From contig CALXXL010000003.1 in NCBI GenBank assembly GCA_944392655.1, positions 62,001 through 126,000 of the forward strand: DNA of 64,000 bases, given 5' to 3'. Under the pieces are notes generated by a model that was given only the letters and a program-made list of their open reading frames with translations, ran no database searches and was not told where the DNA came from. Positions 58,010 through 62,327 of the stretch are shown piece by piece. This DNA is from an uncultured Victivallaceae bacterium (GTDB lineage: Bacteria; Verrucomicrobiota; Lentisphaeria; Victivallales; Victivallaceae). Position 1 is the stretch's first letter, and every line of letters starts with the position of its first letter. Made by a program: the position numbers and the translations under genes.

Positions 58010-59278
58010 TTATGGTTCAACTCCGAGAGCTTTATACATTGCCTCGGTGGTCTCTTTAACAAAAACCTTATCAAAGGAGTGCCCCATTTTAGGAGATGGA
58101 TAAATCTTCTTTGGTGCTTTAATTTTATTGAATGCGGCATAAACGCTGCTGGGGCCGCAAGCCACGTCGATAAATCCGACGCCGACACATACCGGGTTAT
58201 CGACTCTTGCGGCGAAGTTGACCACATCGAAATACGGAGCCATCTTTTCCGTTCCCTCCGGGGTATTGTCGATCAGGAGCGGCCACCCGGGGCTTCTGCC
58301 GTCTTTATAAGCGGTATGTTCGCACATAGCGGGTACGTTGGCAACGGTAAACTTCACTTTTCCCGGGTTCAATCCGGAGAGGATCAGGGCGTACGCGCCG
58401 CCCTGACTGGAGCCGAAGAGGCCGATATTTTCGCCGTCCCACTGCGGCAGAGTTTCCACGAATTCGAACGCCCGGTTGATGCCGAGGATAGAGCGTCTGT
58501 GATAATACTTCATCCGGTCCGGGGCGCCGTAATAAGAATAAGTTCCGTGAGTACGTCCGAGCTCCTTGAATGCCTGTTCGGTGGTATCGGGACCCGGATC
58601 AAAAAAGTGGACATTCATTACAAGCGTCATAACTTTTGGCTTATTAAAGAAATACAGATTAGGTGCAACATCGCCCTGACCGGCGCCCGGAACCATAATA
58701 ATTATGGGGAAAGGACCGGGTTCATTTTTGGGAACAGCGAGGAAACCGTAGATTCTGGTATTATCGACATTAGCCAGGCTGACCTTGTATCCGTTGAAAT
58801 CTGGATTGGAAAAGTTTTCCAGTGGAGTAACTTCCGGATCCAGCGGAATTGCCTGAGCCTCGGCAATACCGTCGGCCCAGAACTGGTCAAAATCGTCCGG
58901 TTCTTCGGTAGTTGCTTCGATCATCTCCGCGTCGAATCCGGCTGCGCCGATCGGGCTGGGATAATATACATTTTCCTGATTATTCACGGTACACCAGATA
59001 AATCCCGGCTCATCCAGTGTAAGGGTATAAGATGCGGGGTTATTTTCAGCGAAATCCATCACCTCTTCGCGCAGCGGCTGCATTTTCTCTTTACGGAAGG
59101 AGATCACTGCCGTTCCCTCTTTCAATAGGTTGCCGTCGTCATCCAAAGCGGTCACAGTAAAGACGGCCGGTTCACCACATTTATAGAGTGCCTCTTCCCT
59201 GTCGGTATCGATCCGGAACTCTCCGGCGTTAAGTGCGGCAGCTATACCAGCAATAATAAAAAACAAAATTCTTTTCAT
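58010..59278 (-). CDS. Exported acetyl-xylan-esterase-like (AXE1/CE7) hydrolase
   Basis: 422 residues. A signal peptide (MKRILFFIIAGIAAALNAG) suggests export. An N-terminal beta-domain of ~115 residues is followed by the AXE1-type alpha/beta hydrolase with nucleophile elbow GLFGSSQGGAYAL, the Asp region and terminal KMGHSFDK His. CE7 enzymes remove acetyl groups from xylan, oligosaccharides or cephalosporin C. Start overlaps the preceding small gene by 4 bp. Confidence 0.88.
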   Translation of the reverse strand: MKRILFFIIAGIAAALNAGEFRIDTDREEALYKCGEPAVFTVTALDDDGNLLKEGTAVISFRKEKMQPLREEVMDFAENNPASYTLTLDEPGFIWCTVNNQENVYYPSPIGAAGFDAEMIEATTEEPDDFDQFWADGIAEAQAIPLDPEVTPLENFSNPDFNGYKVSLANVDNTRIYGFLAVPKNEPGPFPIIIMVPGAGQGDVAPNLYFFNKPKVMTLVMNVHFFDPGPDTTEQAFKELGRTHGTYSYYGAPDRMKYYHRRSILGINRAFEFVETLPQWDGENIGLFGSSQGGAYALILSGLNPGKVKFTVANVPAMCEHTAYKDGRSPGWPLLIDNTPEGTEKMAPYFDVVNFAARVDNPVCVGVGFIDVACGPSSVYAAFNKIKAPKKIYPSPKMGHSFDKVFVKETTEAMYKALGVEP

Positions 59279-59499
59279 TCCGTTGCTCCTGCGGTTTTGA
59301 TCTGTTCTGCACCTTCGCCTTTTACCGGCGCAGAGACAGCCTGTCCGCTCTCTGCGGCCGGCTCCTGATCGATTATTTCGACTGATATCTCCGCCTGTGG
59401 AGCATTACTCCATCCGGCATACTGTATTCCGCAGAACAGAATCAGTGCTGCGACGACAGCGGCGAGGAGAATAAAAAACAACCACTTTACATGTTCCAT
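59275..59499 (-). CDS. Small single-helix membrane protein, unknown
   Basis: 74 residues: short cytoplasmic start, one helix (~5-27; WLFFILLAAVVAALILFCGI), then an acidic, Ala/Glu-rich tail without a recognised domain. An AGGTGA ribosome site is close to the ATG. It overlaps the esterase gene (ATGA) and is probably co-translated with it. Function unknown. Confidence 0.65.
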   Translation of the reverse strand: MEHVKWLFFILLAAVVAALILFCGIQYAGWSNAPQAEISVEIIDQEPAAESGQAVSAPVKGEGAEQIKTAGATE

Positions 59500-59550: not shown

Positions 59551-59802
59551 TTACATATCGCTGATCACCGCTTCGAGTGCCTGATTGTGTTCGTCGTTGA
59601 CTCTTTCGACGGTACTTTCAGAGTGGCGGTACGCCTTGCCGAGGACACTTTTCGGCTCTTCCTCGTTCTGGATTTTCTCCACTGTCTTTACGGGGTCCTG
59701 CGCCTTCTCAGCCGCCTTATCTGTGGCGTCCCGCAAAAAGAGGAACCACACCGCCGCGCCGAGTACAATCAGGGCGACAAGCCAGGTTATCAGTTTTCCC
59801 AT
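59551..59802 (-). CDS. Small single-helix membrane protein, unknown
   Basis: 83 residues: N-terminal helix (~4-22; LITWLVALIVLGAAVWFLF) followed by a charged, helical tail. GGAGG lies 6 bp before the ATG. It sits between panD and another small membrane protein gene on one strand, suggesting a panD - two small proteins - esterase series. No family recognised. Confidence 0.65.
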   Translation of the reverse strand: MGKLITWLVALIVLGAAVWFLFLRDATDKAAEKAQDPVKTVEKIQNEEEPKSVLGKAYRHSESTVERVNDEHNQALEAVISDM

Positions 59803-60251: not shown

Positions 60252-60279
60252 AATATATCATTAAAAACCGCGCTTGCAA
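60252..60279 (-). promoter_or_regulatory. Putative panD promoter
   Basis: Minus strand TTGCAA (60279-60274), 16 bp, TATATT (60257-60252). Confidence 0.6.
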
Positions 60280-60332
60280 AATCTCCTCCGGGCAAAAAAT
60301 ATTCTTTCTTCATCAAAGAATCATCAATTAAT

Positions 60333-60360
60333 TTGCATTTTCTTCCGGAGCTATTATATT
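60333..60360 (+). promoter_or_regulatory. Strong putative promoter ~300 bp upstream of prs
   Basis: TTGCAT (60333-60338), 16 bp, TATATT (60355-60360), the best match to the promoter pattern in the window. It points toward prs, with the predicted start near 60367. Confidence 0.65.
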
Positions 60361-60658
60361 ATAGAGTTTTGTATTATAAAAAAGCCAGAACTTCGATTCG
60401 CAGGAATCCATCTTGAGTCTGCCTGACGGAGCACGGATTGCATTAAGCGGCCGCAGCGGGAGTTGAGGGAGATGCGGGATGACCGGGAATGTTATGTAGT
60501 GGGGGTATTCTCCACTTTCAAAGACAGAGCTGTTTTCTGCTTTCGTAGTTTTGCTTAGTGAATCAGGAACAAGCAAGCGGGGCGCTCAGATACTCCTCCG
60601 GCGTGGGGTTGGAGAGGCGTGAGCGGTCCTTTAAAAAAATACGGAAAGAGTTTCAAAT
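60361..60658 (+). ncRNA. Long structured prs leader or small RNA, with a four-tract G-quadruplex motif
   Basis: No convincing gene occupies this stretch. GGG tracts start at 60458, 60467, 60476 and 60485, exactly nine bases apart with 6-nt loops, satisfying the usual G3-N1-7 quadruplex rule. A hairpin AGTGGGG-GTATT-CTCCACT spans 60498-60516. A 28-codon frame starting at ATG 60472 (GGGAG 9 bp upstream) could be a leader peptide. Pairing between GAGTCTG near 60415 and CAGATACTC near 60587 is possible. E. coli and Salmonella prs also have long leaders. Whether this is a leader or a separate RNA is unresolved; no clear terminator precedes prs. Confidence 0.4.
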
Positions 60659-61618
60659 ATGGAAACAGCGACTCACATCTGTGTCTACGCGGGGACCTCG
60701 CATCCTCAGCTGGCGAGCGACATAGCTGATTTCATCGGCATACCGCTCGGCAAAGTCAACGTCACCCGATTCCCTGATGGAGAAATCCATGTCAAATTCG
60801 GCGAACACGTCCGTTCGGCCGACGTCTTTATAGTGCAGCCGACCTGCACCCCTACCAATGAAACGTTAATGGAGCTGCTGATCATGATTGATGCGGCCAA
60901 GCGTTCGAGTGCTGCGCGCATCACGGCGGTACTTCCGTTCTACGGATATGCGCGTCAGGACCGCAAGGATCAGCCGCGTGTGCCGATTACGGCGAAGCTG
61001 GTGGCGAATCTGATTACGGTAGCCGGGGCGGACCGTATTATTTCGGTTGACCTGCACTCGCAGCAGATCCAGGGTTTCTTTGACATTCCGGTGGATCATC
61101 TTTATGCCCGTCCGGTGCTGGTTCCGGTACTGCGTGAAGTAACCGGCGGCAAGAATGAAGACCTGGTAATAGTTGCGCCGGACTCCGGCAGTGCGAAAAT
61201 GGGTATGCAGTACGGGGATCTCTTGCATGCCGGTTTTGCGGTAGTAGCGAAGCGCCGTTTAAGCGGGGACAGCGTCGCTTGCAGTCATTTGGTGGGAGAA
61301 GTGGAAGGCAAGACCTGTATTATCACGGACGACATGACCTCTACCTGTGGCACATTGGCGGCGGCGGCGGAGATCTTGAAGGCCCGTGGGGCGAAGAAGA
61401 TCTATGCAGCGGTAACGCACTGCATGCTGAATGAGCAGGGCAAAGCGCGTCTGCTGTCGAGTCCGATCGAGCAGCTGATCACGACCAACACGATTCCGCA
61501 GAAGGATGACCTGGGTGGCCGGATCAAGGTAGTGAGCATGGCGCCGCTTCTTGGTGAAGCTATCCAGCGTATTCATGATGGTAAGAGTGTTTCGACCTTA
61601 TTCTATGTACGTGATTAA
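60659..61618 (+). CDS. prs: Ribose-phosphate pyrophosphokinase
   Basis: 319 residues. It makes PRPP from ribose-5-phosphate and ATP for purines, pyrimidines, His, Trp and NAD. Flexible loop PFYGYARQDRK, SVDLHSQQIQGFFDIP, catalytic and regulatory segment VVAKRRL and the PRPP-binding IITDDMTSTCGTL are conserved. The ribosome site is modest (GGAAAGAG). Confidence 0.97.
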   Translation: METATHICVYAGTSHPQLASDIADFIGIPLGKVNVTRFPDGEIHVKFGEHVRSADVFIVQPTCTPTNETLMELLIMIDAAKRSSAARITAVLPFYGYARQDRKDQPRVPITAKLVANLITVAGADRIISVDLHSQQIQGFFDIPVDHLYARPVLVPVLREVTGGKNEDLVIVAPDSGSAKMGMQYGDLLHAGFAVVAKRRLSGDSVACSHLVGEVEGKTCIITDDMTSTCGTLAAAAEILKARGAKKIYAAVTHCMLNEQGKARLLSSPIEQLITTNTIPQKDDLGGRIKVVSMAPLLGEAIQRIHDGKSVSTLFYVRD

Positions 61619-61691: not shown

Positions 61692-62327
61692 ATGAGCAAA
61701 CAGAAACATGAAATCGCGGTATTTCCGCGCAGTGAATTTGGCAAGAATGCTGCGCGCCGCGCCCGCCGCGATGGTATGGTTCCGGTGAACGTCTATGCGA
61801 AAGGCAAGGAAAACCGTTCTTTCTATGTAAAGAGCAATGAGTGGGAAGTGCTGAGCAAGCAGGATTTCTCGCTGGCCTTTCTGATAAACGGATCGGAAAA
61901 GATTGGAGTAATTGTAAAAGAAGAGCAGATCAACTACATGAAGAGCTATGTTGTGCATGTTGACTTCCAGGAAGTAGACCTGAATGAAGAAATTCATGCC
62001 AGCGTAAAGGTTGTAAGCACCGGCACCTCTGCTGGAGAAAACCATGGTGGTGTAGTTGAACAGATCATGCATGAAATCGAACTTGTTGGTAAAGCTCAGG
62101 ATATGCCTGAAATGGTTGAAGTGGATGTAACGGATCTTGATCTTGGTCAGAGCATCATGGTCAAAGACGTTAAGCTGCCGGCCGGAGTAAGCTCGAAGAA
62201 CGATCCTGAAGCGGTAATCTTCCATGTAGTTCATGCTGATGAAGAGATTGAAGTTGCAGCTCCTGCAGAAGGTGGAGAATCCGCCGAACCTCAGGTTCTG
62301 ACTGAACGCAAGCGTGATGAAGAGTAA
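61692..62327 (+). CDS. rplY: 50S ribosomal protein L25 (CTC/TL5 type)
   Basis: 211 residues, the long bL25 form: a 5S-rRNA-binding domain (~1-95) plus a C-terminal CTC domain (~96-185) and an acidic tail. GGAG 5-6 bp before the ATG. It lies between prs and pth, a classic prs-rplY-pth order. Confidence 0.95.
   Translation: MSKQKHEIAVFPRSEFGKNAARRARRDGMVPVNVYAKGKENRSFYVKSNEWEVLSKQDFSLAFLINGSEKIGVIVKEEQINYMKSYVVHVDFQEVDLNEEIHASVKVVSTGTSAGENHGGVVEQIMHEIELVGKAQDMPEMVEVDVTDLDLGQSIMVKDVKLPAGVSSKNDPEAVIFHVVHADEEIEVAAPAEGGESAEPQVLTERKRDEE

Follow-up and report, generated by a model that had tools for sequence, protein, structure and literature searches.

PRPP synthetase makes PRPP, a nucleotide precursor, and thereby opens the routes to purines, pyrimidines, histidine, tryptophan and NAD. 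The prs gene considered here (ATG at 60659) is preceded by a leader of about 290 nt that contains no gene between promoter and start codon, which raises the question of whether this leader holds an RNA element controlling PRPP synthesis. The leader lies in a 64-kb window (the whole stretch of DNA that was analyzed) from a Victivallales (Lentisphaeria) MAG, and the close relatives of its Prs protein all come from Lentisphaeria/Victivallales MAGs. The identity of the gene as prs is certain, and it probably forms one operon with the following rplY/ctc gene (Table 1); the order prs-rplY-pth, with the genes adjacent, was found in 35 of the 35 related loci checked. The prs gene of a congener (L004), 86% identical to that of the window, served for close comparison.

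A sequence-only reading of this region had described a TTGCAT-16-TATATT promoter followed by no gene until the prs ATG, exactly as the sequence has it, and had ranked this promoter as the best in the window; in a plain consensus scan covering 56-64 kb, it scores 9/12 and two other sites 10/12, so that the ranking does not strictly hold. Almost every one of the 60 leaders compared has a site of the form TTGnnn-16/17-TAnnnT in this position. In 60/60 leaders, the best promoter-like site (TTG-type -35, spacing of 16-18 nt, TA...T) falls just before the conserved core described below, with 12-44 nt from the -10 box to the core, and the best promoter score in these leaders is 10.5, versus 8.1 in shuffled sequences. 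Since all 60 leaders have a promoter of this type in this position, the prs promoter is probably real, and transcription is expected to start near 60367. The claim of a long prs leader read from a distant promoter is hence supported, and with 12-44 nt between promoter and core, the mRNA should begin almost directly with the conserved element. Further genes of the family (L123, L124) are likewise preceded by a TTGCAA/TATATT-type motif, and its recurrence suggests a promoter consensus of the lineage.

A three-way-junction RNA in the prs leaders of Victivallales

Aligned prs leaders of other genera have [R]ACCTTRATCC..GGATY..hairpin..ACCCGnAAGGT in common. Folded, this pattern gives a three-way junction: helices P1 (ACCTT/AAGGT) and P2 (RATCC/GGATY) are accompanied by a P3 that varies, and J3/1 carries an unpaired CC(G). 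The unpaired CC is invariant in 59 of 59 relatives, and the following base is G in 52 of them. In the 60 rows of the A6 alignment, which was fitted to the structure (thus inflating pair counts) and includes the doubtful row L175, 96.4% of cells are paired, the covariation score reaches 0.437 (shuffling gives 0.179, slid registers no more than 0.119), and 138 cells are double-changed versus 48, many of them in P2 and P3. For these two reasons, the genome-wide specificity of the element for prs is a stronger argument than its covariation in A6. The P1 helices of A6 include 35 U-G pairs at two inner positions; on the opposite strand these would be A-C mismatches, which identifies the functional strand as the sense strand.

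Specificity was assessed with two covariance models. The first (R1), built from 15 hand-trimmed sequences, was run over 78 family genomes, and its 30 best matches fell one per genome, all immediately upstream of prs and in sense orientation. The second (R2), built from 41 real sequences, yielded a prs-locus match at E < 0.005 in 31 of 40 family genomes, where noise stayed at or below 18 bits save for one 25-bit match elsewhere, and 40 Victivallales matches over 388 phylum genomes, those examined being located at prs, plus one weak match off prs. The order-wide search placed the RNA in three families of the Victivallales; no instance outside the order was returned from 198 genomes of the class, and none at prs outside Victivallales from the Verrucomicrobiota phylum genomes searched. 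Most of the Victivallales searched carry one copy per genome, with 78 to 353 nt separating the junction core from the prs start codon. Three weak model matches of 24-25 bits that do not precede prs (L175 in G303, L176 in G126:C25, and G034:C56:43741-43791) are probably due to chance. A BLAST-level nucleotide search did not detect the RNA beyond the genus, and structure is hence needed to find it. Taken as a three-way-junction RNA, the element is almost certainly real.

The junction in these leaders is a new RNA family. A scan with Rfam 15 gave no family above its gathering threshold for the prs leaders, and a permissive scan of 12 leaders (E up to 1) produced no match, ykkC-type RNAs included; our search of the open literature returned no RNA element tied to prs and no description of a Victivallales prs motif. 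PRPP riboswitches (ykkC subtype 2b) are known from Firmicutes, where they precede genes of purine synthesis and often form tandems with guanine aptamers; the report describing them makes no mention of prs (PMC5912903). They resemble the element in being 5' leader RNAs tied to PRPP and purine metabolism, but are built from three ykkC hairpins, a build for which the prs leaders show no Rfam match. Purine riboswitches (guanine, adenine, 2'-dG) are likewise three-way junctions closed by a P1 that can switch, as that of the prs-leader RNA may do. Their conserved junction bases are not the CC(G) that the prs-leader RNA has in J3/1, the loops of P2 and P3 in the prs-leader RNA lack constant sequences, and the Rfam purine riboswitch consensus did not match the prs leaders. 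Acido-Lenti-1 RNA (RF01687), listed as not cis-regulatory, is likewise a structured RNA from Lentisphaerae (PMC2864571) but has no match to the prs leaders.

The copy in the window

The window carries a divergent copy of this RNA with a long P3 (Table 1). R2 aligns it end to end as the best match of the leader, with 6.9 bits and an E-value of 0.077 in 468 nt, and the R1 search missed it; the low score is explained by the length of P3, and the copy of the congener scores 33 bits. The unconstrained minimum-energy fold of this copy gives the same junction as the R2 alignment, at a stability no greater than that of shuffled sequences (z -1.03). P1, P2, P3 and the CC(G) of J3/1 are all found in the window copy, which makes it a member of the Victivallales prs-leader RNA; the grounds for this membership are homology to the congener's copy, the position and the retained CC(G). 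An alternative 3' strand of P1, GGAGTT at 60459, was rejected: GAATGTT at 60487 is favored by 11 kcal/mol, and the alternative lacks the CCG.

Table 1. Annotated features of the prs leader and operon, in window coordinates.
Feature	Position	Strand	Basis
-35 element of prs promoter, TTGCAT	60333..60338	+	sequence; consensus scan; recurs in relatives
-10 element, TATATT, 16 nt after -35	60355..60360	+	recurs in relatives
Three-way-junction RNA, divergent member with long P3	60388..60495	+	R2 match; minimum-energy fold; congener copy
P1 5' strand, AACTTC	60389..60394	+	fold; R2 alignment; identical in congener
P2 hairpin, GATTC-GCAG-GAATC	60395..60408	+	fold; R2 alignment; identical in congener
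P3, extended hairpin, 73 nt	60409..60481	+	minimum-energy fold
J3/1, ACCGG, with invariant unpaired CC and conserved G	60482..60486	+	CC count in relatives; R2 alignment
P1 3' strand, GAA-U-GTT, one bulged U	60487..60493	+	fold; R2 alignment
7-bp hairpin AGTGGGG/CTCCACT, just after junction	60498..60516	+	sequence; mean pairing profile after core
GCTGTTTTCTGCTTTCG, conserved in congener	60529..60545	+	congener alignment; ensemble fold
GAATCAGGA, in congener as GAATCGGGA	60560..60568	+	congener alignment; GAATC complementary to GATTC of the 5' strand of P2
GGAAAG, probable prs ribosome-binding site	60643..60648	+	sequence; same in congener
prs, ribose-phosphate pyrophosphokinase, 319 aa	60659..61618	+	NCBIfam NF002320, 398 bits
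rplY/ctc, ribosomal protein L25, next gene after prs	61692..62327	+	TIGR00731

Comparison with the congener shows two persisting blocks, AACTTCGATTCGCAGGAATCC and GCTGTTTTCTGC with a following GAATCnGGA. Within 60529..60545, TTTTCTGC can pair with GCAGGAA of P2 as an alternative to the junction, and including this block in the ensemble fold drops the probabilities of both P1 and P2 to about 0. A 27-base stretch in another genome (L002:1501-1527, G013:C155) is 93% identical to window positions 60517-60543 (GAGCTGTTTTCTGCTTT); an unrelated reading frame ends shortly before it and a terminator-like hairpin follows, and the likeness is probably due to chance.

Downstream sequence and proposed function

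Averaged over the family, the junction core is followed by a local hairpin, then by an A-poor, pyrimidine-rich stretch and finally by an A-rich ribosome-binding zone; the 7-bp hairpin that the sequence-only reading had pointed out corresponds to the local hairpin usual at this place. The effect of this downstream sequence on P1 depends on position. The predicted probability of P1 exceeds that of shuffled sequences by 0.20 +/- 0.04 at +30 nt, stays higher through +40 nt and falls below shuffled sequences by 0.084 +/- 0.021 at +75; collapsing the leaders to 34 clusters gives +0.17 +/- 0.05 at +30 and -0.097 +/- 0.029 at +75. These values are family averages, and the signature is weak for the window and its congener themselves. 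In this modeling, a P1 that would be shielded for about 40 nt past the junction and then displaced is partly shown, in a switch-like manner. The simpler notion that downstream sequence just destroys P1 in the full leader was rejected: most full leaders do lose P1 in equilibrium folds (mean 0.21), but shuffled ones retain even less (0.09), and the position-dependent pattern alone survives.

Pairing partners differ between genera, and no universal downstream partner was found among the leaders. Elements resembling CGGTTYAGGG are complementary to P1a-P2a in g16 and g2, and an anti-P1a/P2a partner is weakly above chance (permutation p 0.025); a general anti-P1b pyrimidine tract, also considered, was no better than chance. 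Terminator-like hairpins after the core are mildly enriched (12.1 versus 8.9). The clearest terminator-like element of the set belongs to L015, where a long hairpin and then TTTTTTC come directly after the junction; a close relative, L017, does not have it.

Two hallmarks of riboswitches are present: a conserved, covarying structure in a 5' leader, and a tie to a metabolic gene set, here prs only. The junction RNA is very probably cis-regulatory, and a small-molecule sensor is a rather likely role for it. We favor, with reasonable confidence, a riboswitch-like cis-regulator of PRPP synthesis, for which binding, regulation and the expression platform are all inferred. The prs mRNA would start roughly 5-37 nt before the junction, which could bind something during a limited interval, until downstream sequence disrupts P1. 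The ligand would most likely be PRPP or a nucleotide end product, given that the gene downstream is prs. P1 would compete with downstream pairing, and the bound and free forms would differ in read-through into, or translation of, prs-rplY-pth; the outcome would be feedback on PRPP supply, by transcription attenuation or translation control. That the RNA constitutes a new riboswitch class confined to Victivallales, sensing PRPP or a nucleotide product and controlling PRPP synthetase, we regard as an even bet. With about 60 aligned members sharing a clear junction core, the question of the ligand is immediately testable, and this in gut and environmental bacteria of an order whose regulation has been little studied. 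The earlier proposal of an RNA element controlling PRPP synthesis thus fares well as to the element, which is in the leader, and its control of prs is likely; the features chosen to represent it were the wrong ones, as detailed below.

G tracts, rival readings and neighboring genes

The element had originally been sought in four GGG tracts with a 9-base period (60458, 60467, 60476 and 60485), accompanied by the 7-bp hairpin and a 28-codon frame opened by the ATG at 60472, all of which are present in the sequence as described. The window has no second period-9 match, 100 dinucleotide shuffles gave none, and neither strand holds another G3N1-7 motif. A G-quadruplex regulating prs in this species could draw on this exactness and uniqueness, but the four-tract motif is found in 0 of 59 other related prs leaders, that of the congener included, every loop would be 6 nt long, and G4-aware folding does not select it. 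In the predicted structure, the first three tracts lie within P3 and the last in J3/1-P1, and keeping the tract region unpaired forfeits about 17 kcal/mol of helix. We therefore give the quadruplex almost no credence as a leader element; the lack of conservation among close relatives, named beforehand as grounds for abandoning the proposal, is real and touches the G-tract part only. The 28-codon frame is not conserved either, and a conserved leader peptide was rejected, as short frames vary among relatives. The parallel drawn with enterobacterial prs leaders is inapplicable to a Victivallales host.

The remaining rivals accept the RNA and dispute its role. Other ribosomal proteins repress their own operons, and the junction might be a binding site through which L25, encoded next in the operon, does the same; the constancy of prs-rplY-pth in 35/35 loci means that gene context cannot separate prs from rplY, which leaves room for this reading. 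The RNA precedes prs, the first gene, and not rplY, however, and none of the Rfam ribosomal-protein leader families matched the prs leaders. L25 binds 5S loop E, of which the conserved part, a junction with variable arms, holds no obvious copy (the assembly yielded no 5S gene for comparison), and we consider L25 binding rather unlikely. Unlikely as well is a leader structure that senses nothing, protecting the 5' end or keeping prs mRNA at a constant level: the extreme 5' position of the junction and the loss of P1 in equilibrium folds would suit it, but invariant unpaired junction bases and an ordered protection and then loss of P1 exceed what a stabilizer needs. An independent, trans-acting small RNA between panD and prs, the other option offered by the sequence-only reading, would account for a promoter of its own and for the weak terminator-like hairpins of some leaders; in each of three families of the order, the element invariably lies shortly before prs and in sense, with no convincing copies elsewhere, and this option is very improbable. 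A riboswitch-like regulator of prs accordingly remains the preferred reading.

The divergent panD promoter (minus strand, 60252-60280; TTGCAA-16-TATATT) stands back to back with that of prs. Downstream of panD, the window encodes two short, membrane-anchored-looking proteins at 59275-59499 and 59551-59802 (-), the latter without a match in an NCBIfam scan, and the congener L004 has similar-looking short frames at the same place.
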